Assembly (NCBI GenBank): GCA_003695565.1
Contig: RFIQ01000326.1
Coordinates: 1 to 35,331 of the forward strand
DNA: 35,331 nucleotides
From: Planctomycetota bacterium
GTDB taxonomy: Bacteria > Planctomycetota > Planctomycetia > Pirellulales > Pirellulaceae
Direction: 5' to 3'
This document shows positions 4,275-25,981 of the stretch, piece after piece. The notes beneath the pieces are model-generated. The model was not told the origin of the DNA and made no database searches. It saw only the letters and a list, made by a program, of their open reading frames with translations. Made by a program: the position numbers and the translations under genes. Every line of letters begins with the position of its first letter. The first letter of the stretch is position 1.

Positions 4275-7200
4275 ATGAATTTTATTGAGCACGCGAGTTT
4301 CGCCTCCACGGCGCTGGATCGGCCCGCCACGGGTTGGGTGAAAGCGATGCACCGAGGGGTAGCCGCTGTGTTGGTGGGGGGCTGGGCGGCGTTTGCCGGA
4401 TTGGCGTCTCCTGCACAGACCCCCAACGCGCCAGAGCCTGCGCCGGAGCAGGTCGAGTGGTTCGAAAAGAACATTCGGCCCATCCTGGCGGAGAACTGCT
4501 ACAGTTGCCACAGTGCGGCGTTCGACAACCGCAAAGGTGGGCTGACCGTTGATTCGCGGTCGGCGCTGATCGCCGGTGGTGATTCCGGACCAGCAGTCGT
4601 GCCGGGGCACCCGGAGGAAAGCCTGCTGATCGAAGCCGTTCGGCGAGAGTCCTACGAGATGCCGCCGGATAAGGAGTTGTCGGCTCGGGAGATCCAGTTG
4701 CTGACCGAATGGGTGCGGCGGGGAGCCGTGTGGCCCGACAATCCCGCTCCGCCGGACCAGGGTGGGGATTGGGTCGCGGAGCGCATGCGCGTGCATTGGG
4801 CCTGGCACCCGCCCGAGCGACCTGCCGTCCCCGAAGTGCCGAACGATGCATGGAGTCGCAACGCCATCGACCGGTTCATCCTGGCACGGCTCCGCGAGGA
4901 GGGTCTGGAGCCGGCCGCAACTGCGGACCGGTTTACGCTCGCGCGGCGGTTGCACTTCGATTTGATCGGACTGCCGCCGGGTCCACAGGAAATTGCCGAC
5001 ATGATGGGCAGCAGTGGGCATCGGTGGGAGGAAGCGTATCGGTCGATGGTCGATCGCCTGCTGGAATCGCCCCAGTTCGGTGTGCGGTGGGGCCGGCATT
5101 GGTTGGATTTGATGCGCTACGCGGAAACACTGGGGCACGAGTTCGATTACCCGATCCACTACGCCTGGCGCTATCGCGATGCGGTCATCGACGCGTTCAA
5201 TGCGGATGTGCCGTACGATCGATTCTTGACGGAACATCTGGCAGGAGACTGTCTGCCGGACCGCCGTCGGCATCCGACCGATGGTACGGACCAGTCGTTG
5301 GCGCTGACGGGATTCTGGTTTCTGGGCGATGCGGTGCATGCGCCGGTCGATATCCTCAGCGATGCTGATACCCGCATGGAAAACCAAATCGACGTTTTTT
5401 CCAAAGCGTTCCTGGGGCTGACGGTTGCATGCGCGCGGTGCCACGACCACAAATTCGATGCGATCGGCACGGATGATTACTATGGTCTGACGGGCGTTCT
5501 GAGTAGCACTCGCCGCGTTTACGCGCTGACCGATCCCCACGAGCGCATCGCCGAGCACAACGCCGCCCTGGTGCAGCAATTGCAAGACGCGTCCGCAGCG
5601 GCTCTGGAAATGTATCGCCAGGCGGCAATGGCAGTGCCGCCGACGGTCCGGTCCGAACCGTCGCCCCGAGTGTCGGCTGTGGATCGTTTGATCGGTCAGA
5701 CGAAATCGCCAGCGCCGCGGGGGGTAGAGTCGGTAGTATCGCGGCCGCGATTGGTCGCGCATCAGACCCCACCGGTCACCAACTGGTACCAATGGCTGCA
5801 GAACGTCCGCCGGGTATGGAAGGAATTGCCTGCGGCGCAGCGGCAGAAACAGGTATCGGTCAGCGATCCGCTGTTTCCGCTGTCTGTAGGGTTGCAGGAG
5901 GAGGGCTGGCAGGTCGAGTTGCGGCGGGTGCAGAGCCGGTTGCAGGAGGCGGCGCAACGATTTGATCAGTGGGAACGAGGCACGCAATTGTTCGCCGACT
6001 TTCGAGACGGCGTGCCTGCAGACTGGCAGCTTGAAGCGATCGACCCAACGAATCGTTCTCAGGCCCCTTCATTCCAGTGGCGGCACGACCCCCAGGGACA
6101 AGTGGGGATCGACTGGTTCAGCGACGAAGCGCCGATTCCCCTGCGCCGTGGAGTTTTTGCGTCGCACGTGTTGGGGCGTCGCCAGCAGGTGACCCTCCGC
6201 TCGCCCAATTTCCAGGTCAGCCATCCCGTGGTTTGCATCAAGATGCGTGGAACGGCGGTGCACTCCGGCTTGGTGATCGACAATTATTTCATGACCGAGT
6301 TTCATAGTCTGCTTTTCAAAGATATTCGCAAGAGTGTTGATCAGCATGCGGATGCGGGATGGGTTACGCACCGCGGTGACTTGAACAAGTACGTAGGGCA
6401 CTCGGCATACCTGTCGTTGGAAGATTCCGGCGATGGATGGTTCGAGGTGCAACAGGTGCGGTTCGCCCAGACACCACCACCGGTCGAGCCCAGTCCGGCC
6501 GCCATGCGGTTGATGGGGATGGCGGGCGAGTCGCAGGAAGGGACGTTGGAGCGCTGGGCCCGCGAGATTGCTGCCGCGTTCGAGAGGGTGGCCCAAGGGA
6601 CGGCAACGGACGTCGACAGGCTGTTGGTGCGAGGTGTGTTGCACACGGCGCAGGCCGTCGACGTTGACTGGCCGGTTGACATCCCGGATGCGGCCGCCCA
6701 GAACGGGCGAGCGGGGGACTGGGCCGAGGCGCGCCGCAGGTTGCTGCAGAGCGATCAGAGGTCGCCCTCACCGGTGCGGCTGCTGGCCGCTGCGGAGGGA
6801 ACTCCCGTCGATGTTCCGATTCGATTGCGCGGTGATCCACACCAATTCGGAGATCGGGTTCCGCGAGGTTGCTTGGCCAAACTGCCCGTCTATCGCCCGG
6901 CAGGGCCCGATTCCTCGGGGAGGAGGGAATTGGCCCAGTCGCTGACCGATCCCCGGCATCCGCTGGTGGCGCGGGTGATGGTCAATCGCGTTTGGCATCA
7001 CCTGTTTGGGCGTGGAATCGTCGACTCACCCGACAACCTGGGCGAACTGGGCGGCAGGCCGACGCACCCTCAGTTGTTGGATTATCTGGCCACAGAATTC
7101 GTCGCCCACGATTGGTCGGTAAAGTGGCTGGTGCGGGAGATCGTCACCAGCAGCACCTATCGATTGGGCAGCGCACCGTCGTCCCACCAGCGCGAGGCGG

Positions 7201-15332: not shown

Positions 15333-18005
15333 TCAGGCCGGCGCGGGGGAACCAGAGGACTGGTCGCGCGGGATAAGGTCACGCAGCGATTTGTAATCCG
15401 TCTTGCCGGTGCCCAGCACGGGGATCGAGGGGATGCGGCGGACTTCATCCAAGCGCAGTACGCCCTGCAAACCAGCCTGTATCAGGAGTTGATTGGCCTG
15501 GCGAAGTGTCAGGTCGGTTGTAGTAAACAGGACGATATGGCGTCCGCGCTCGGTTTCCACGCCTTCCACGGCCACTCGCGGTCCCTGTTCATCCGGCGGA
15601 AAGGCGGCGGCCAACGGCGATTCCAATGCGGGCAGGGAGATCATCTCGCCTCCGGCTTTGAGGAAGCGTTTGAGTCGGCCTTGAAAGTGCAAGAAACCGT
15701 CGGCATCCATCGATACCAGATCGCCCGTGCGGTACCATTCCTGCCCCTGGAATTCCACCATCGGCGAGGGGCCATCGTATTGGAAGTAACCGGAGAAGAC
15801 GCTGGGGCCGCGAACCAGCAGCATGCCGGTCTGGCCGGGCGGAACCGGTTGGTTGGAATCCAGGTCGACGATCGCAATCTGTACGTGCCGCACCGGTTTC
15901 CCAATGCTGCCGCGGCGATGGTCGTCGCGACGATTCGCGGCCACCACGGGGGAGCATTCGGTGATTCCATAGCCTTCCAAAATGGTCGCCTGCGGGGCCT
16001 TTGTGGCGCAAGCGTCAAATACCGATTCCGGGCACTTCTCGGCTCCAGTGACCACGATCCGCAGCGACTTGAGGGCATCGTCCTCCGCGGCCGCGCACAT
16101 GTAACTGAGAAATGTCGGTGTGGCAAACAGCAGGGTGGGCCGAAATGCTGCGGTCAATCGCACCAGCCCGGCAGCATCGGTGGGGTCCGGATGATGAATG
16201 CAGCGGATCCCGGCCAGTACGGGCAGAACGACGTTGCCGGTCAGCCCGAAGCTGTGAAACGGCGGAAGGAACCCCAGGACGGCGTCCTGGGTATCCGCTT
16301 CCAGAATTTCCAGCCCATCGCGCACGTTGGTGATCAGATTCCGATGCGACAACGGGACGGTCTTGGGACGGCTTTCGGAGCCGGAGGTAAACAGGAACAC
16401 TGCCGGTTCGTCCGGCTCTTGCGGAGGCACTATGCGCCGGATGCGGTGGGGGAGGAACCAGGTCTGGAGCAACGTGACCAGGGCCTCTCCCCGACCGATG
16501 GATGCCTTGATATCTTCCAGGAAGAGAAACTCCGCCGTGGGCGGCGCCGCGACTCCCAGCCGATCGACGACTTTGCGCGACGTGATGATCTGGCGGAGAC
16601 CGGTGGTTTCCACCGCGTGCTGTAAATTGGATGGCCCGGTGGTCCAGTTCAGCATCACCGGCGTCTTGCCAGACAAATGTGCGGCGAAGAACGCGATGTC
16701 GGCGGCGGCCGAGGCGGGTAACAGGATGCCAATCCGCGGCTGGGAGAGTTCCCCGAACCGCCGTGCCATCAGGAGACTGGCGACGAGCAGGCGGCGGTAC
16801 GTCAACACGCCCGATACCGCATCGGCCACCGCCGGAGCGCCACCGCTGGTCAGGCATCGGCGGACGAACGCGTCAGCAATCGTATCGCTCAGCACTGTCG
16901 CGGGCACGGGCGGACGCGTGCGCATCCACAGTTTCGGCGGTCGGAGGGACGCAGCCTTGGTAGCCGCGTCCGAGGCCAGTTTGCCATCGGCCAGGGCCCA
17001 CAGGTCGCCCAGGGTACGAGCTACGTCGTCGCTGCGAAACCCGAACTGGTGCTCGATCTTCAACGCCAGGTCCATCCGATCCAGGCTGTCCAGACCCAGC
17101 GATTCCAGCGGCGTGGCGGCCTGCTGTTCGGCCGGATCCAACTCGCGCCCCAAGTGAGATTCGATCAGTTGGGTGACCAGGCTGATGGTGGCCGGATCGA
17201 TGGATGCTACCTCGTAGGTGCGGTGGCTGGCGTTCCCACCGTAGGTCTTCGAACGCGGACCGAACCAGTGGTGGTAGGGCACGAATCGCGGGGCTTCGCC
17301 GCCGTCGGCGTTGTACCACTGTTCGAGAAACGCATTGAATTCTTCACGCGATTCCAGCGGCAAGCGGTCTCGGGGGACCACTTCGACTTGCATGCGCACC
17401 GTCCGCCTGGGCAAGAAGAAGAACAAGCTCGCCAACACCCATCCGACGGCTTGCAGTGTCCGGCGGCCCAAGGGAGGCGGCGCTGCCGTTTCGGCACAGG
17501 AAAACATGCTGCCCCACACTCCGCGTGTGCGAACCAGCACGATGTTCACCTCGGGGCATCGAGAAACAATCTCATGCACCGCACGGGCTGCACCGACGAC
17601 TTCACGATCGCCGCGCTGCAATCGCCCGGAAGGGTAGATCAGCAGACAATCGCCGTCGTGCAGCCGATCGACCACGGCATCGATCATTTCGCGAGCTTGG
17701 GCGGCCGCCCGACGGCTATGTGAGGACAAATCGGGAACTTCGAACGCGCTGACCAACCACATCAAAGGGCGCAAGGGCAACATGCGGTAGGTGCCGGAGA
17801 ATACCAACGGACGCAGCGGCCGGTGCAATCGGATATGAGACGAGACCAGAGGTGGGTCGATATAGGCCGGGTGATTGGGCAGGACCAATGTCGGGCCCCG
17901 CAGGTTGCGCAGCCGCTCGGCCCCCTCCAATCGTGTGCGGTAACGAAACCCCAGCAACCATCGGCAAATCGTCCAAAAACAGCGGTTCATCCTGTGCCGT
18001 AGCAT
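15333..18005 (-). CDS. Trifunctional PlsC-type acyltransferase - acyl carrier protein - AMP-dependent acyl synthetase (Aas-like)
   Basis: PlsC NHPAYIDP; ACP ESLGLDSLDRMDLALKIEHQFG; adenylation FLFTSGSESRPKTVPLSHRN, EGYGITECSPVV, YRTGDLVSMDADGFLHFQGRLKRFLKAGGEMISL. ATG 18005 is a plausible start (the listed ORF extends to 18041). Confidence 0.92.
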   Translation of the reverse strand: MLRHRMNRCFWTICRWLLGFRYRTRLEGAERLRNLRGPTLVLPNHPAYIDPPLVSSHIRLHRPLRPLVFSGTYRMLPLRPLMWLVSAFEVPDLSSHSRRAAAQAREMIDAVVDRLHDGDCLLIYPSGRLQRGDREVVGAARAVHEIVSRCPEVNIVLVRTRGVWGSMFSCAETAAPPPLGRRTLQAVGWVLASLFFFLPRRTVRMQVEVVPRDRLPLESREEFNAFLEQWYNADGGEAPRFVPYHHWFGPRSKTYGGNASHRTYEVASIDPATISLVTQLIESHLGRELDPAEQQAATPLESLGLDSLDRMDLALKIEHQFGFRSDDVARTLGDLWALADGKLASDAATKAASLRPPKLWMRTRPPVPATVLSDTIADAFVRRCLTSGGAPAVADAVSGVLTYRRLLVASLLMARRFGELSQPRIGILLPASAAADIAFFAAHLSGKTPVMLNWTTGPSNLQHAVETTGLRQIITSRKVVDRLGVAAPPTAEFLFLEDIKASIGRGEALVTLLQTWFLPHRIRRIVPPQEPDEPAVFLFTSGSESRPKTVPLSHRNLITNVRDGLEILEADTQDAVLGFLPPFHSFGLTGNVVLPVLAGIRCIHHPDPTDAAGLVRLTAAFRPTLLFATPTFLSYMCAAAEDDALKSLRIVVTGAEKCPESVFDACATKAPQATILEGYGITECSPVVAANRRDDHRRGSIGKPVRHVQIAIVDLDSNQPVPPGQTGMLLVRGPSVFSGYFQYDGPSPMVEFQGQEWYRTGDLVSMDADGFLHFQGRLKRFLKAGGEMISLPALESPLAAAFPPDEQGPRVAVEGVETERGRHIVLFTTTDLTLRQANQLLIQAGLQGVLRLDEVRRIPSIPVLGTGKTDYKSLRDLIPRDQSSGSPAPA

Positions 18006-18410
18006 TGCGGTTTGCTTCCTGGGATAGGGGGCGAGTACCAATTCTCCAGTCCATTAGATACCATTCAATGTACTGGTTGGGCGCCAGCGCAACAGTGACG
18101 TCTCTGGCAATTGTCGCATCGACGCCGCGGCAGTGGTGGGTTGTCACGTGGAGAGTGTCCCTCTGGTGCATCTTTATGAAATGCGACTGCATCAAGTTGT
18201 CAGGAGGATTTTTTGACTCGCCAGCAGATAGCACGGTGGGCTGGAATCAACGGATGGAACTCAGGACTCTGGCGATGGGATTGAGCGGCACCCCTCTGGC
18301 GAGGTCCCTCGGTCGAGCGAGGGTTCCGCCATGTTAGGTATCTGCGGGATCGGCAATAGCGAAGAATTCGGATTTTTCGGATCTTATCTGATTCACCGGT
18401 TGCAAAGAGT

Positions 18411-18439: not shown

Positions 18440-18508
18440 GAGTCGCAGCTTGAAACGCAGGGTTTCAAAGCTTTACGTCCGAGTCGCCTTCCAACAGGAG
18501 GAAGTATC

Positions 18509-18883
18509 ATGAGTAGCGTGGTGAGAGTGTCTGCAGTTGCGTTGTTAGTGGGTGCCCTAATCGGTCAGGCGCAAGCCGCCGATCCATTTCGCACGGCGCC
18601 GAGTGAGAAAGCGGTCAGCCAGATTGCACTGGCAGATATGGGGCTGGGCTCCATGCGTCCCATGAACCGGACCGAGGCGTCCCAGGTTCGGGGCCAAGGG
18701 GCGAGAGTATTTGGCGTATCGTATGCCAGTTTCAACGGGTTTCTCTATCAAGCTGGTAGCGTAAATGGCTACTATTCGAACAATCCGTCTTGGTCGGCGG
18801 GACTGTCCTTCGCGGCAGTGAATGGACCTGGACCGCTGCCGGTGGCCTATGGCGTCGGATTTTCGATCGCTGGCGGAAACTAG
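18509..18883 (+). CDS. Small secreted protein with pro-region and uncharged aromatic/Gly-rich C-terminal core
   Basis: SD AGGAGGAAG; Sec signal MSSVVRVSAVALLVGALIGQAQA|AD; leader-like EASQVRGQG. The last 60 aa have one charged residue (Arg), 11 Gly and 11 aromatics. Its own promoter and terminator flank it. Confidence 0.8.
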   Translation: MSSVVRVSAVALLVGALIGQAQAADPFRTAPSEKAVSQIALADMGLGSMRPMNRTEASQVRGQGARVFGVSYASFNGFLYQAGSVNGYYSNNPSWSAGLSFAAVNGPGPLPVAYGVGFSIAGGN

Positions 18884-18922
18884 ACGTCTCGACACCTAAA
18901 TGTCGAGCTGACGAATTACCGA

Positions 18923-18957
18923 AGGCATCGCGCGAACTGGCGCGATGCCTTTTTTTG
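18923..18957 (+). terminator. Rho-independent terminator
   Basis: AGGCATCGCGC-gaactg-GCGCGATGCCT perfect 11-bp stem followed by TTTTTTT. Confidence 0.93.
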
Positions 18958-19235
18958 TTATACCGCCATCCATCTCTGGTTGCGTCTGTGGGGATGGGGC
19001 GAACTGTTTGGTCAGACCGCTGTCTTTGTCCTGGTGGTGACATGACGATTGTACTGGTTGTTCGGTAATGCTCGATTGCAGGGCCTGACGCACGAAGGCT
19101 GCACGGACCTGTTGACATTGTTCGATGAAACGAGCGATCCCCCGCGTTGGGCTGGTTGGATGCGGGCAACGCTCGGGATGAGGAACAGCCATGGAGGCGT
19201 TCCCATTTGTGCCCACTCACGGATTGAGATGAACA

Positions 19236-20231
19236 ATGAAGCACACAATTTTTGGCATAGTATGTCTTTGGGCCTTGCTGGCATCTTCAGCAGTCTGGGC
19301 GCAGAATTCAGCTCAGCGATGCGGCAGGACCGGTTGGTACGCTGGTGTGGAGGCGACTTATTTAGCGCCCCTGTACGACGTTGCTCCAACTACATTTCAG
19401 CTTAGCGATGGCGGGGCGACGACGCTTACGACTGGGGCGGCATTCGACAGCGCCGAGCAGATCACGGGCGCTCCCCGCATTACGCTGGGGACGGAACTGG
19501 GGCGGGGTTACGGAATCCAAGGCCGGTATTGGGAGTTGACGAGCACGAGCAGTCAATTCAATGCTCCGACGCCTATTCTGGGCAACCAACTCCAGTCGCT
19601 TGGCGGTGAAGATTCATTCAACGCCTATACAATCGATCTGGAATTGACCAAAGAGTTTTACCGCAGGAATTGGGATTTGCTGGGCACCGTCGGTGTGCGC
19701 CATGCATCGTTGGATCATGGACACACGGCATCCGCCTACGGTGTCATGAACAACGACGGGTATTTTTTGTCCGCCAGCAATGGAGAGGAGTTCCATGGAA
19801 CGGGGCTGACATTCAGCTTGTCCGGGATTCGAGATATCCGTCCGTGCCGGGGATTGGCTGCTTACTGGACCACACGTGGCTCGACCATTTTTGGAACTGC
19901 AGAAACCTCGGCTCTCACCAGTGCCAATGTTTCGAGTGGATTTGGCAACGCAGGGAGCACCAATGCAGCTATCGATCAACAGGATGAAACCCTGTTTATC
20001 GGTGAGTTCGGTGCTGGATTGCAATGGTCCCGGTGCGTCAGAAGCTTCAACGGACGCTTCTTTGCACGGACTGGGGTCGAGTACCAGTGGTGGGATGCAG
20101 AAGATGGTTCCGCAACCGCTCAATCCGCGGCGGGTATTCTAGGCAACAGTGTGGGAGTGGCCACGACCAACGGTGCGGAATTGGAGACCCAGTTTATCGG
20201 TTTAAGCGTGATGACTGGGTTCGCCTGGTAA
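19236..20231 (+). CDS. Outer-membrane beta-barrel protein (Lpg1974-like)
   Basis: Signal peptide MKHTIFGIVCLWALLASSAVWAQ. WYAGVEATYLAP, repeated amphipathic strands with GIQGRYWEL, C-terminal FIGLSVMTGFAW ending in an aromatic. Confidence 0.75.
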   Translation: MKHTIFGIVCLWALLASSAVWAQNSAQRCGRTGWYAGVEATYLAPLYDVAPTTFQLSDGGATTLTTGAAFDSAEQITGAPRITLGTELGRGYGIQGRYWELTSTSSQFNAPTPILGNQLQSLGGEDSFNAYTIDLELTKEFYRRNWDLLGTVGVRHASLDHGHTASAYGVMNNDGYFLSASNGEEFHGTGLTFSLSGIRDIRPCRGLAAYWTTRGSTIFGTAETSALTSANVSSGFGNAGSTNAAIDQQDETLFIGEFGAGLQWSRCVRSFNGRFFARTGVEYQWWDAEDGSATAQSAAGILGNSVGVATTNGAELETQFIGLSVMTGFAW

Positions 20232-20335
20232 GTGGAAACGGAGTAACACGAGTAGGCGTCGCGTTGTAGCCATCAAGGTTGCAAGGCGACGCCTTGTTCT
20301 TGCCCCCTGGCACCACGCAAAGGAATGCAATCGCC

Positions 20336-21460
20336 ATGGATCTTCCGTACGTATGGAGCCGAACCTCCCTGGCCGGCTGCCTAAGAGAGTTTTCTTTAGT
20401 CGCGGCCCATTGGATTGGGCTGGCGGCATTCCTGGCAAGCGCCGTCGCCCATCCCGCCGCAGCGCAATCCGATTCTGGCACAGGCCATGGACCGGACCAG
20501 GCGTCGGGGGTTGTCTTAGCAGCCCATTCCTTTCGCGGGTTTCGAAGCATATCCTTGCAATCCGAGTCAGGGCAACCGGCGCAAGAGAGCTTGTCGCCCC
20601 CTGATGATCAGCAATCGGTTGCGCCCGACGAGCGCTACGGGGAAGCACCACCGGAGGTGGGGCCTCAATTCTTACGGAGTCTTACCCCCTTGTTGCGTCG
20701 AGGCCAGAGTCAGTTCGATTATGGTCTGGTGTATACCCTCCAGGAATTCGATTTCCCCACGTTGGTTGGTAGCAATCTGGTTCGCGCGAATTCTCGCCGC
20801 CGGGCGTTATTCACCCCGCTGGCTTGGAGGTACGGATGGAACGATTGCACGCAATTGTTTGTCAACCTGCCAGTGGGGTGGTCCCATTCGGAGGTTTCCA
20901 CACCTTTCAGCGACAATCGTCGTGATGAATTTGGCATCGGAGATTTGACCTTTGGCGTTACCAAGCTGTGGCGTCAAAACCGCTCCACAGGGAGCTCCAC
21001 GATCGTGACGTTTCGCACGGTGGCGCCGACGGGAGACGCAGTGAATCCTCTCGTCATCGACAGCGTTGGATTGGGCAGCGGGGCCTGGCGATTTGGGGGT
21101 GACCTCCTGCGCGTGCAATCGCTTGATCCCGTCGTGCTGTTCTACGGCATAGGGTACGTCTACAGTGTCGAGGATAGCTATCAAGGCAATGACATCCAGC
21201 TCGGCCATCAAGCGAACTACAACCTGGGGGTGGGGTTTGCCGCCAATGAGTATGTAACGCTCAGCACGGCATTTCTCGGAGCCTTCATTACGGAAACCAG
21301 ATTGAATGGTGTCAATGTATCGGGGAGCGAGCAGGAACCTCTTCGCGTCCGCATGGCGGCAACCATTGCCAGGCGTTGCAGGATCATTGAACCGTTCGTC
21401 ACTATGGGGTTGACCGATACCGCACCCAGTGCAGAACTGGGCGTCGTCTGGACCCGCTAG
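20336..21460 (+). CDS. Outer-membrane beta-barrel transporter (phenol-MetA-deg/FapF-like barrel)
   Basis: LTPLLRRGQSQFDYGLVYTLQEFDF..., YGWNDCTQLFVNLPVGWS, DEFGIGDLTFGVTKLW, GVGFAANEYVTLSTAFLG: alternating beta-strand pattern of MetA-type barrels. Signal-like N-terminus. Confidence 0.72.
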   Translation: MDLPYVWSRTSLAGCLREFSLVAAHWIGLAAFLASAVAHPAAAQSDSGTGHGPDQASGVVLAAHSFRGFRSISLQSESGQPAQESLSPPDDQQSVAPDERYGEAPPEVGPQFLRSLTPLLRRGQSQFDYGLVYTLQEFDFPTLVGSNLVRANSRRRALFTPLAWRYGWNDCTQLFVNLPVGWSHSEVSTPFSDNRRDEFGIGDLTFGVTKLWRQNRSTGSSTIVTFRTVAPTGDAVNPLVIDSVGLGSGAWRFGGDLLRVQSLDPVVLFYGIGYVYSVEDSYQGNDIQLGHQANYNLGVGFAANEYVTLSTAFLGAFITETRLNGVNVSGSEQEPLRVRMAATIARRCRIIEPFVTMGLTDTAPSAELGVVWTR

Positions 21461-22195
21461 ATGGAGATTGCTGTGCATCGTGAATATCGATGGAACCGAC
21501 GAAACGTACCGGGCATGGTGTTGCTCATCTTCGCGGCCCTGGCGGCAGCACCGGCACTGGCGCAGACTGAGCGTCAGGCAGGCATCGTCCGCGATCCGGC
21601 GTTTCGCATGGCAAAGCCGGTGATGAGCTGGAAGCAAATGAAGAATCGCCATGTGGTCATGCAGCAGCGTGATTATTCGTGCGGCGCTGCCGCCTTGGCA
21701 ACACTGATGCGTTACTACTGGGGGCATGACGTCTCCGAAGCGGACGTCCTGGTTGTTGTGGAACGAATGCTCGATGCAGAGCAGCTACGGGATCGGGTGG
21801 AGAATGGGCTGACCATGGCGGACCTGGAGGAAGCAGCGCGCAGAATGGGTTACCAGTCCGTGGTCGGACAGGTTACCTTCGAAGAACTGAAGGGGAGCAA
21901 AGTGCCCGTGATCGTCGTGGTGAATCTCGGAGGGTTGAATCATTTTGTGGTTTACCGCGACGATGCCTGTGGCAGTGTATTCTTGGCCGATCCGCTACGT
22001 GGGAACACGCGGCTGTCGGCCGAGGGTTTTCAACAGGTTTGGCAGCGGAATGCGATCCTCGTGGTCGCTCCGCCGGGACAAACTTCATCTGAGCGGTCGC
22101 AGTTGGGCTTGACGTCCGCGGATTTGCATACCGGGTACCTAAACAAACAGGTGATTCTACGGGCTGCCACAAACGGTATGAGTTTCTTGAAATAG
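21461..22195 (+). CDS. Secreted/periplasmic C39-family cysteine peptidase (FapD-like, not fused to an ABC transporter)
   Basis: Signal VLLIFAALAAAPALAQ; catalytic Cys QQRDYSCGAAALATLMRYYWG; His GLNHFVVYRDD; Asp FLADPLRGN. Start abuts the previous stop. Confidence 0.88.
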   Translation: MEIAVHREYRWNRRNVPGMVLLIFAALAAAPALAQTERQAGIVRDPAFRMAKPVMSWKQMKNRHVVMQQRDYSCGAAALATLMRYYWGHDVSEADVLVVVERMLDAEQLRDRVENGLTMADLEEAARRMGYQSVVGQVTFEELKGSKVPVIVVVNLGGLNHFVVYRDDACGSVFLADPLRGNTRLSAEGFQQVWQRNAILVVAPPGQTSSERSQLGLTSADLHTGYLNKQVILRAATNGMSFLK

Positions 22196-23385: not shown

Positions 23386-24798
23386 ATGGCAGCGACCCAG
23401 CGGATGACCGGTCCCAGCATCGTCTTCTCTGAAGGGACGCTGGTGTTGACGGAAGTGCCGGAGGGTTGGGTGCGCCAGCACTTTCCTGAAGGACCCTGGG
23501 TCTGGGATGCCCGGGCGGGGGTCTGGCGGACCGATGCACTGCATTACGCCCAAGTGCGGCGTGTCTGCCGTGGGGGGGACGTTCCTGTGGAAGATGAAGT
23601 TCCGGCGTGGAGCCCGGTTGCCTGGCCGACCGTTCGATTGCATCCCTTGCGAGAGGAGCAGGAGGCGGCCGTCGAGGCCTGGCGGCAGTCCGGGCGCGGG
23701 GTGGTGGTCATGCCGACCGGGACCGGCAAGACCGAAGTGGCGTTGCACATCATGGCCAAGGCGGCCCGCAGCACACTGGTGGTCGCACCGGTGCGCGATC
23801 TGATGTACCAGTGGCACCGCCGCATCCAGGCCGGATTGGGGTATGATGCAGGTATCATCGGCGACAGCATCTACCGCCTGAATCCGGTATCGGTGACCAC
23901 TTACGACAGCGCGTGCATCCACATGCATCGCTTGGGAAATCGATTCGAATTGATCGTGTTCGACGAATGCCACCATCTGCCCGGTCCGCTGCGCCGCGAG
24001 GCCGCGCTGATGTCGGCGGCCAGGTTTCGGCTGGGTTTGACCGCGACTCTCGAGCGGTCCGATGGCCGGCACGTTGATCTGCAGACGCTGATCGGGCCGA
24101 CTTGCTACGAGTTGAAGCTGTCCGCGGTACGCGGTCGAACGGTTGCGGATTACGAAGTCATCCGCATCGTGGTGCATTTGTCGGAGCCGGAAAGGAGGCG
24201 TTACCGTGAGTTGGCCGATCAGGTTCGCAATTACATGCAAGCGCGGCGTGAGGAACAGCCGGATTTCTCTTGGGAAGATTTGTGCAAAGATGTGGGACGC
24301 AACGCGGAAGCACGCGCGGCGCTGCGTGCCTATCGAGCCAAGATGGCGATCGAGGAGCGGGCAGAGGAGAAGCTGCGAGTCCTGGAAGATCTGTTTCGTT
24401 TGCATGCAGGTGCGCCGGCGTTGGTATTCGTGGGATCCAACGCCATGGCACGCGATATCTCGCGTCGGTTCCTGATTCCTTGTCTGCTCAGCCACTGTGG
24501 AAAGAAAGAGCGATTGGATGCATTGGAGGGGCTGGCCGATGGTACCTACCCGGCCGTGGTCGCCAATCGAGTGCTGGATGAGGGGGTGGATTTACCAGCG
24601 GTCAACGTGGCGATCGTCATCGGCGGCGGTGCTTCGGCCCGGCAAGCGGTGCAACGCCTGGGACGCGTGTTGCGCCGCAGCGGCAACGCCAAAGCGGTGC
24701 TGTACGAAATCGTTACCGATGACACCAACGAAGTAAAGCGATCGAGGAGTCGCCGGGCTGCGGATGCTTACACGGGAACACGCCATCGCCGAGCTTGA
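23386..24798 (+). CDS. XPB/Ssl2-like superfamily 2 DNA helicase
   Basis: LREEQEAAVEAW, MPTGTGKTEVALHI (Walker A), VFDECHHLPG (DEAH-type), GLTATLERSDGRH, QRLGRVLRRSGNAKAVLYEIVT (motif VI). Confidence 0.92.
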   Translation: MAATQRMTGPSIVFSEGTLVLTEVPEGWVRQHFPEGPWVWDARAGVWRTDALHYAQVRRVCRGGDVPVEDEVPAWSPVAWPTVRLHPLREEQEAAVEAWRQSGRGVVVMPTGTGKTEVALHIMAKAARSTLVVAPVRDLMYQWHRRIQAGLGYDAGIIGDSIYRLNPVSVTTYDSACIHMHRLGNRFELIVFDECHHLPGPLRREAALMSAARFRLGLTATLERSDGRHVDLQTLIGPTCYELKLSAVRGRTVADYEVIRIVVHLSEPERRRYRELADQVRNYMQARREEQPDFSWEDLCKDVGRNAEARAALRAYRAKMAIEERAEEKLRVLEDLFRLHAGAPALVFVGSNAMARDISRRFLIPCLLSHCGKKERLDALEGLADGTYPAVVANRVLDEGVDLPAVNVAIVIGGGASARQAVQRLGRVLRRSGNAKAVLYEIVTDDTNEVKRSRSRRAADAYTGTRHRRA

Positions 24799-25981
24799 TT
24801 TTCGCCAGGGGACAATCCGGCCAGACCGCCTGGTCCGCGGTTCGCACCGGCGGTATCTGAGGTATGCCGAGGGGATGTTGCGCGTGTATGCGGAGGGGAT
24901 CGGGGCCACACGCAGGGCGCTGCATCGGGCCGTGCATGAACTGTTTGCCCGCGAGCCCGATTGCCCCATCACGCGGATCGATGCGTTTTGCAAATTGCTG
25001 GACGACGTTAGCACTTTTCGCACCGATCGCCATGGTGCCGCGGCGAAGTTGCGAAAGGAAGTGTTCCGCTTGGGTGCCCAGTTCCATCCGCTGGTGGAGC
25101 AGGCCGACCGGTTCTTCGAGCACGATCACCGGGAGGTCAAACGGCAGATCGCCCAGCGCCTGGGGCGTAGTTGGGAGGAGATCGATGCGGCCTTGTTCGC
25201 CGACATCCCCGAGTTTCATCGCTTGGAGGCGTTTCAGGGGTATGCCAGCCCCGCCGCACTGCTGGCCCGTTACAACGTTGCGCAGGTGCAGGTCGCCTTG
25301 TACTCGGCGACCCAGATGATCATCTGGGCCAGCGATGATTTCAAAACCATCTTGCGGTACGCCAAACTGGCTCGTTTGATGCACACCATTGAGCGCGTGG
25401 CGGATGGCGGCTACAAGATCATCCTGGACGGACCGGCTTCGCAACTACGTCAGACCCGCAAGTACGGCGTCAACCTGGCTCGGTTCCTTCCCGCCCTGAT
25501 CGCGTGCCAGAACTGGAAGATGAAGGCAGAGTTGAACGTTGGCCGGCGGGGCTGGCCGGTACGGCTGGAATTGTCCAGCCGCGATGGATTGTCCAGTCAT
25601 CTGCCCTCGCCCGACATGTTCGACTCGGAGGTGGAACGGAAGTTTGCCGAGAAGTGGGGAGACCAGCCGCGCGACGGTTGGGAGTTGGTGCGGGAGGGGC
25701 AGATCTTGCACGACAAGCAGAAGGTCTTCCTGCCCGATTTTACCTTTCGGCATGCGTCGGGAGCGGAGGTGGCCTGCGAGATCGTGGGGTTCTGGACCCC
25801 CGAATATCTGGCCGCCAAAGCAGAGACGCTGGCCCGCTTTGGCCAGCACCCGATTTTGCTGATCGTCAGCCAGGTCGCCCAGGGGCGGATGCCCGTCATG
25901 GACCTCCCGACGGTGACATACAAGACTTCGATCAAGATTGCCCCAGTGCTGGAACAACTGGCGCGGTTCGTCGAGCGGTGA
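24764..25981 (+). CDS. DUF790 / Bax1-like nuclease (archaeal XPB-associated endonuclease family)
   Basis: N-terminal LTREHAIAELDF; SRDGLSSHLPSPDMFDSEVERKFAEKW; nuclease-like LPDFTFRHASGAEVACEIVGFWTPEYLAAK. Overlaps the XPB ORF by 35 nt. Confidence 0.88.
   Translation: MLTREHAIAELDFRQGTIRPDRLVRGSHRRYLRYAEGMLRVYAEGIGATRRALHRAVHELFAREPDCPITRIDAFCKLLDDVSTFRTDRHGAAAKLRKEVFRLGAQFHPLVEQADRFFEHDHREVKRQIAQRLGRSWEEIDAALFADIPEFHRLEAFQGYASPAALLARYNVAQVQVALYSATQMIIWASDDFKTILRYAKLARLMHTIERVADGGYKIILDGPASQLRQTRKYGVNLARFLPALIACQNWKMKAELNVGRRGWPVRLELSSRDGLSSHLPSPDMFDSEVERKFAEKWGDQPRDGWELVREGQILHDKQKVFLPDFTFRHASGAEVACEIVGFWTPEYLAAKAETLARFGQHPILLIVSQVAQGRMPVMDLPTVTYKTSIKIAPVLEQLARFVER

Follow-up and report, generated by a model that had tools for sequence, protein, structure and literature searches.

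A planctomycete locus for a candidate two-leader export pathway with a FapF-like barrel and a periplasmic C39 peptidase

In the functional-amyloid (Fap) system of Pseudomonas, secretion requires the activity of the peptidase FapD, a member of the C39 family, whose members usually cleave after double-glycine motifs (PMC5557850). FapE is the sole Fap protein whose N-terminus is fully lost in vivo, and the target of FapD was stated to be unknown in 2017–2018 (PMC5557850, PMC6173800); a 2025 review has FapD thought to process FapE and FapF (PMC12822426). Co-localised fapD and fapF homologues outside Fap operons were reported earlier in five additional phyla (PMC6173800). Here, a locus from a Pirellulaceae planctomycete (Planctomycetota bacterium, GCA_003695565.1) was analyzed on positions 1 to 35,331 of contig RFIQ01000326.1, a stretch of 35,331 nucleotides referred to below as the window. 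The locus carries a small leader protein, two outer-membrane barrels (Lpg-like and FapF-like) and a C39 peptidase (Table 1), and it probably encodes an export pathway in which the substrate bears two successive leaders.

Leader proteins and their genomic partners

Small open reading frames (ORFs) neighboring the C39 gene in relatives were found to share a segment behind the signal peptide, with the family consensus L..MGL..M..(M/V)SD.E(G/A)..VRG-x↓G (arrow, predicted cut). Across 69 leader proteins, the conserved columns were L-23, M/L-20, G-19, L-18, M/L-15, M/V/I-12, S-11, D-10, E-8, G/A-7, V/I-4, R-3, G-2 and G+1, with a variable position -1; L-23, G-19 and L-18 had not been part of the seed pattern. 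Information fell sharply past +1, leaving conserved leader columns in front of a variable mature part. The spacing is that of double-glycine leaders. Hydrophobic residues at -4, -12 and -15, E-8 and G-2 agreed with such leaders; the Gly/Ala at -1 and Leu/Met at -7 that they also carry were replaced mostly by K/Q/M/L and by G/A, respectively. In the window the leader profile matched 18614-18700 (E 4e-13 genome-wide), its sole match in that genome. The 18509 protein belonged to no Pfam or NCBIfam family, and the small leader proteins gave no match in either library except CsgA for one.

C39, barrel and leader parts recurred together in ~40 other planctomycete loci. Among cultured isolates, Blastopirellula marina DSM 3645 (L091) and Bythopirellula polymerisocia Pla144 (L093) have the locus. 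In an order-level set of 377 genomes, the C39 was present in 37, and a leader (E <=0.001) was detected in 34 of these 37 and in 0 of the 340 others (Fisher p ~3e-45, uncorrected for shared ancestry). Chance association of the parts was rejected on the strength of the recurrence and of these counts. Two of the three C39 genomes lacking a leader match had the gene on contigs under 8 kb (G584, G678), and the third had a divergent leader protein in its locus (G590). Marginal matches (E 0.001-0.01) in genomes lacking the C39 (G709, in a 1043-aa frame; G628; G208 of the phylum set) were read as chance. Among 99 relatives, a stand-alone C39 and the leader profile occurred in the same 12 genomes; phylum-wide (294 genomes), apart from a single marginal match, the leader was confined to the two genomes that have this type of C39. 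Presence was polymorphic yet always concordant in six genera (g1, g11, g19, g38, g43, g46), and in G009 (L052) the leader gene lay unlinked on another contig (C4:415405) and still co-occurred with the C39, so the correlation does not reflect physical linkage only. Loci with other C39 types (L063-L076) yielded no leader.

Of the 44 loci with contigs that permitted judging the position of the FapF-like barrel gene, 42 had it directly 5' of the C39 gene, mostly within 50 bp. Leader proteins, often several per locus, were usually encoded near this pair and had variable, Gly/Ser-rich mature parts. Others were encoded away from the C39 locus (G015:C24, G021:C683, G037:C327, G068:C123, G449:C1 and C4, G525:C655), so that the substrate sets of some genomes exceed the content of the locus. 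The initial annotation had proposed looking for co-occurrence of the C39-barrel pair with small RGxG proteins and had held that partnerless pairs would speak against its reading; the co-occurrence was recovered across planctomycete genomes, and the surveys gave no such counter-case.

Barrels, peptidase and cargo

All four ORFs, described initially as a small secreted low-charge protein, two barrels and a C39 peptidase with a signal peptide, were found again in the window, and the barrel stop codon (TAG, 21458-21460) indeed directly meets the C39 start codon (ATG, 21461). A strong Shine-Dalgarno sequence (AGGAGG, 18496-18501) precedes the leader-protein ORF, and an alternative TTG start of the FapF-like barrel gene lies at 20279.

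Table 1. Features of the locus in the window
Feature	Position	Strand	Details
Proposed substrate: leader protein with a Sec signal peptide, a second leader of double-glycine type and a variable mature part	18509..18883	+	124 aa
Predicted Sec signal peptide	18509..18577	+	MSSVVRVSAVALLVGALIGQAQA; read from the sequence
Second leader, predicted C39 cut after Q63 (VRG-Q↓G)	18578..18697	+	...VSQIALADMGLGSMRPMNRTEASQVRGQ; anchored conservation of 69 leader proteins
Predicted mature part	18698..18880	+	61 aa; Gly/Ser/Asn/Tyr-rich, low charge; alignment and composition
Strong intrinsic terminator 3' of the leader-protein gene	18921..18952	+	13-bp stem, T run
Legionella_OMP/Lpg1974-type outer-membrane beta-barrel, usual neighbor	19236..20231	+	331 aa; AlphaFold pLDDT 85; best PDB fold 9nh1
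FapF-like outer-membrane barrel with low-complexity N-terminal extension	20336..21460	+	374 aa; barrel domain ~20708-21454
Sec-type periplasmic C39 cysteine peptidase	21461..22195	+	244 aa; PF03412 E 1e-21

The FapF-like barrel was matched by Pfam Phenol_MetA_deg (E 4e-9) and was the sole PF13557 barrel found in its genome. Searched against the PDB with phmmer, it returned FapF first (5o65/5o67/5o68, E 7e-10 to 9e-10). The AlphaFold model had a predicted local distance difference test score (pLDDT) above 90 for most of residues 121-374, and FapF chains made up all of its 18 best Foldseek matches in the PDB (E 5e-19 to 2e-15); the COG4313 channel 4rl8 came next (E 4e-13). By sequence and predicted fold, the barrel is thus a FapF homologue, as the initial annotation had expected of a structure comparison. 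It scored 43 bits with the NCBIfam FapF model (NF058560; cut-off 700, Pseudomonas control 753 bits) and gave no match to the NCBIfam FilC model at E 1. The N-terminal periplasmic coiled coil of FapF was absent on inspection: residues 38-120 are low-complexity and modeled with low confidence and no helix, whereas Vibrio and Pseudomonas FapF carry a heptad-rich helix in the N-terminal extension.

For the peptidase, the best NCBIfam models were FapD (NF058616, 91 bits) and FilB (90 bits), both below their cut-offs (330 and 475 bits). The oxyanion Gln (Q68) and the catalytic Cys, His and Asp (C74, 21680-21682; H161, 21941-21943; D177, 21989-21991) were all present and invariant in an alignment of 12 sequences. 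The protein is stand-alone, with a predicted N-terminal signal peptide, and is not fused to the transmembrane or ATPase domains of ATP-binding cassette (ABC) transporters. In a tree it fell within a planctomycete clade (99*) and outside the FapD clade of Pseudomonas, Vibrio and Aeromonas (99*), with ABC-fused C39s as a separate clade (99*); the tree came from a quick search and has long branches and an uncertain deep order, and its deep splits were not used. FilB itself was left out of it, since the A. baumannii record used has no annotation for the C39 frame, which seems to be incomplete. As judged from its sequence, the window peptidase is a Sec-type C39 with an intact triad, nearest to FapD and FilB and in a clade of its own. 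At one locus (L060, 8273-10055, -), the C39 gene was tandemly duplicated behind a single FapF-like barrel.

The predicted mature parts measured 43-144 aa (median 85 aa), consisted of 60% G/S/A/N/Q/T/Y and 9.6% charged residues, and had no Cys in 59 of 64 cases; that of the window was conserved in its L077 orthologue (4738-5106). A strong terminator hairpin followed 31 of 63 leader genes in relatives, compared with ~0.2 in shuffled DNA, and because half of the genes end in this way they are suggested to be stand-alone messages. One leader protein adjoining a C39/FapF-like pair (L057, 6730-7338) had ~5 curli-like Q-x-G-x2-N repeats and matched NCBIfam CsgA (E 8e-7). Its 97% complete genome (G055) contained no CsgG (PF03783; Vibrio control positive), and a curli reading of this cargo was rejected on that ground; a PDB search with it gave nothing useful. 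In a divergent leader protein (L193, 7574-8011, -), the mature part GGCYCHGGGGLLNLNLNANVKANLNVLGAVKVKAHVTANIRVR formed an alternating beta-like repeat.

The Lpg-like barrel was present in 37 of the 46 planctomycete loci. Its best PDB fold was the Legionella Dot/Icm-associated porin I, and PF05150 (Legionella_OMP) matched 2 of its 22 orthologues (E 2e-6); its profile found nothing in the PDB by sequence. The label "Lpg1974-like", given at the outset, is backed by the fold and these two orthologues, although the window protein itself had no direct Pfam match. Elsewhere in the window, an XPB-type helicase (ResIII plus XPB damage-recognition domain) overlaps a DUF790 protein (23386-25981, +), a family which we take to be Bax1, the nuclease-like protein that partners XPB in archaea; the pair is found here in a planctomycete. 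A 902-aa fused enzyme with acyltransferase, acyl-carrier and AMP-binding parts is encoded at 15333-18041 (-).

Proposed pathway and its alternatives

In the proposed pathway, the 18509-type proteins, the FapF-like barrel, the Lpg-like barrel and the C39 would all cross the inner membrane by Sec. The periplasmic C39 would then recognize and remove the second leader, most likely cutting after the residue that follows VRG. The freed mature chain, unfolded, Gly/Ser-rich and nearly Cys-free, would exit through the FapF-like barrel and serve outside the cell as a subunit of the surface or matrix, where it probably self-assembles in the manner of curli or Fap in some species at least. Membership of the leader proteins in the C39/barrel system is almost certain, and cleavage of the leader by the C39 is very likely. 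Export of the mature chain through the barrel is fairly likely, and a self-assembling surface fiber is possible at slightly less than an even chance. The association was obtained by comparative genomics, and we infer the cleavage site, the barrel passage and the assembly.

Several points weigh against this pathway. The conservation of VRG (-4 to -2) arose partly by construction, because V, R and G belonged to the seed pattern, and the second leader fits canonical C39 leaders by spacing and not by identity, because of its residues at -1 and -7. Gating must differ from that of FapF, because the window barrel has no FapF coiled coil; among the relatives of FapF, those of COG4313 type serve as uptake channels. 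In many cases the C39 and leader genes do not share a transcript, a recognizable amyloid family was matched by only 1 of 58 leader proteins, and the pathway gives the Lpg-like barrel no function.

The small proteins could instead be peptides resembling bacteriocins or signals that mature in the periplasm and leave the cell with the barrel as exit pore. Bacteriocins classically go with double-glycine-type leaders and C39 peptidases, and the presence of several leader genes in a locus, with mature parts that are hypervariable, would suit this role; it is nonetheless considered unlikely, since Pfam and NCBIfam returned no bacteriocin or immunity family among 58 leader proteins, the mature parts are 43-144 aa long, 60% G/S/A/N/Q/T/Y and almost Cys-free, with one curli-like, and L077 conserves the mature part of the window protein. 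To a similarly low degree, the FapF-like barrel might be a channel of COG4313/MetA type through which hydrophobic compounds are taken up, with the C39 and its substrates acting independently and the pair forming no more than an operon of envelope genes. PF13557 does include uptake channels, 4rl8 is the next best fold after FapF, and the substrates are not adjacent in every case. In Foldseek, however, the E-value for FapF is better than that for COG4313 by some six orders of magnitude, the barrel abuts the C39 in 42 of 44 loci, with distant relatives likewise adjoining C39 in other phyla, and no C39 peptidase has been described in a COG4313 operon (PMC6173800).

Less likely still, the RGxG segment would be a periplasmic sorting or chaperone-binding signal and the C39 a non-cleaving chaperone, as in HlyB-type transporters. 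Type 1 secretion has C39-like chaperone domains and position -1 is not Gly, but the catalytic Cys, His and Asp are invariant in the aligned C39s, the HlyB-type domains lack the catalytic Cys, and conservation ends one residue past the predicted cut; Fap secretion, moreover, needs the FapD Cys (PMC5557850), for which FapD C38A was assayed in E. coli carrying the fap operon of Pseudomonas sp. UK4. A true Fap operon diverged past recognition was rejected as very improbable: among named relatives, FapF for the barrel and FapD for the peptidase rank best or joint best, and FapE has the leader pattern too, but the peptidase (91 of 330 bits) and barrel (43 of 700 bits) fall far under the cut-offs, no FapB, FapC or FapE model matched the 58 leader proteins (Pseudomonas controls 332-753 bits), the barrel has no coiled coil, and the C39 lies outside the FapD clade.

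The two-leader export pathway accordingly retains the Fap-like reading of the initial annotation (leader processing followed by outer-membrane export, with the 18509 product tentatively taken as substrate), which gains support from the FapF fold, the co-occurrence and a conserved second leader of double-glycine spacing on the 18509 protein family. The pathway had been called analogous to Fap, built of different sequences; Fap-like parts are there, but the barrel and peptidase proved homologous to FapF and to FapD/FilB (phmmer, NCBIfam, Foldseek). It had also been called possibly undescribed, which applies to the substrates, leader and context only, because co-localised fapD and fapF homologues outside Fap operons had already been reported (PMC6173800).

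Leaders in other phyla and comparison with described systems

Periplasmic C39 loci of Nitrospirae and Delta-, Gamma-, Beta- and Alphaproteobacteria also had adjacent Sec-type proteins with such leaders. Examples of leaders beside periplasmic C39 genes are VTDTQAQNVRGAA (L128), LTDPEMAEIRGGF (L124), MNDSELAAIEGQA (L125), MSEEQLAAVEGGA (L126), MSEAQLSQYRGGF (L191), MDDSSLSAVTGQD (L192), LSDKQLGDIKGAA (P. fuscovaginae, L130) and that of FilA, MDDAALSAATGQ. A leader profile built from planctomycetes only scored at least 10 bits in 8 of the 185 Sec-type ORFs encoded nearby, whereas none of 99 distant ORFs in these loci and none of 148 ORFs in control loci reached that score. In three Rhodobacteraceae loci (L140, L141, L143), small Sec-type proteins near the periplasmic C39 shared ARGMTQ.EMQ(E/D)T(E/Q)GA ~60-75 residues behind the start, which looks like a further family of such leaders.

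True FapD was found in 28 of 40 Pseudomonas genomes, and DxE(L/M)xxLRGR stood directly behind the signal peptide in 27 of the 28 Pseudomonas FapE. Leader-profile scores for FapE were 8.8 and 10.8 bits in Pseudomonas (shuffle p 0.004), 5.6 bits in Vibrio (p 0.07) and 4.5 bits in Aeromonas (p 0.04); because such single-protein scores are modest, the extension to FapE is given as a prediction and not as a result. The N-terminal periplasmic part of a deltaproteobacterial FapF-like barrel (L128, 2794-4122, +) itself includes a site resembling the leader, ISPREMAVIRGKG, which agrees with the suggestion that FapF, too, is cut by FapD.

Two findings are new: the leader-substrate family, and a leader of matching type in 27 of 28 FapE proteins of Pseudomonas. 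The open-access literature yielded no earlier account of this family or of the planctomycete loci. A general and as yet undescribed Gram-negative "Sec plus second leader" route (a double-glycine-type propeptide directly after the Sec signal, a periplasmic C39 to remove it and a FapF-type barrel to export the chain), with the planctomycete loci, FilABC and FapD/FapE/FapF as branches and FapD cutting FapE at ...DxE(L/M)xxLRG-R↓Y, is put at even chances. Because the leader is all that the numerous paralogous substrates of the planctomycete loci have in common, these loci point to it as the likely recognition element; its spacing recurs without variation in FapE. The question of the FapD substrate thereby becomes testable, with a residue-level prediction for Fap, and a likely explanation of Fil is provided, as is a candidate surface-fiber or matrix secretion system for Pirellulales. 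We know of no export machinery assigned to the surface fibers or holdfasts of Pirellulales.

Among described systems, curli (CsgA/CsgG) shares CsgA-like repeats with the L057 protein, which, however, carries a second leader, sits beside a C39/FapF-like pair and comes from a genome without CsgG. The peptidase-containing ABC transporters (PCAT; NHLP/bacteriocin exporters) have the same C39 family and the same double-glycine spacing (-12, -11, -8, -7, -4, -2), whereas the window peptidase is Sec-exported, without ABC domains and in a separate clade, and its substrates have an additional Sec signal peptide. Fap of Pseudomonas (FapA-F; FapF 5o65) likewise combines a periplasmic C39 with a FapF-type barrel and Sec-exported, Gly/Ser/Asn-rich cargo, and its FapE bears the comparable leader DxE(L/M)xxLRGR just behind the signal peptide. 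By contrast, the planctomycete loci have no FapA/B/C/E homologues (no NCBIfam Fap model, for the FapB/FapC repeat proteins or FapE, matched any of the 58 leader proteins, and the models worked on the Pseudomonas control), their barrel has no N-terminal coiled coil and lies directly 5' of the peptidase, several leader paralogues and an extra Lpg-like barrel are present, and the window peptidase is outside the FapD clade and far under Fap cut-offs; the system is not Fap, because the cut-off, coiled-coil, subunit and clade tests fail. Fil of Acinetobacter differs in leader consensus and gene order, in FilD-F, which have no counterpart, and in its models (FilB 90 of 475 bits, no FilC match). It is nevertheless closest to the planctomycete locus in gene content, with a small Sec-exported FilA carrying the leader MDDAALSAATGQ, a C39 (FilB, whose model scores as high as FapD for the window peptidase) and a FapF-like barrel (FilC) side by side.

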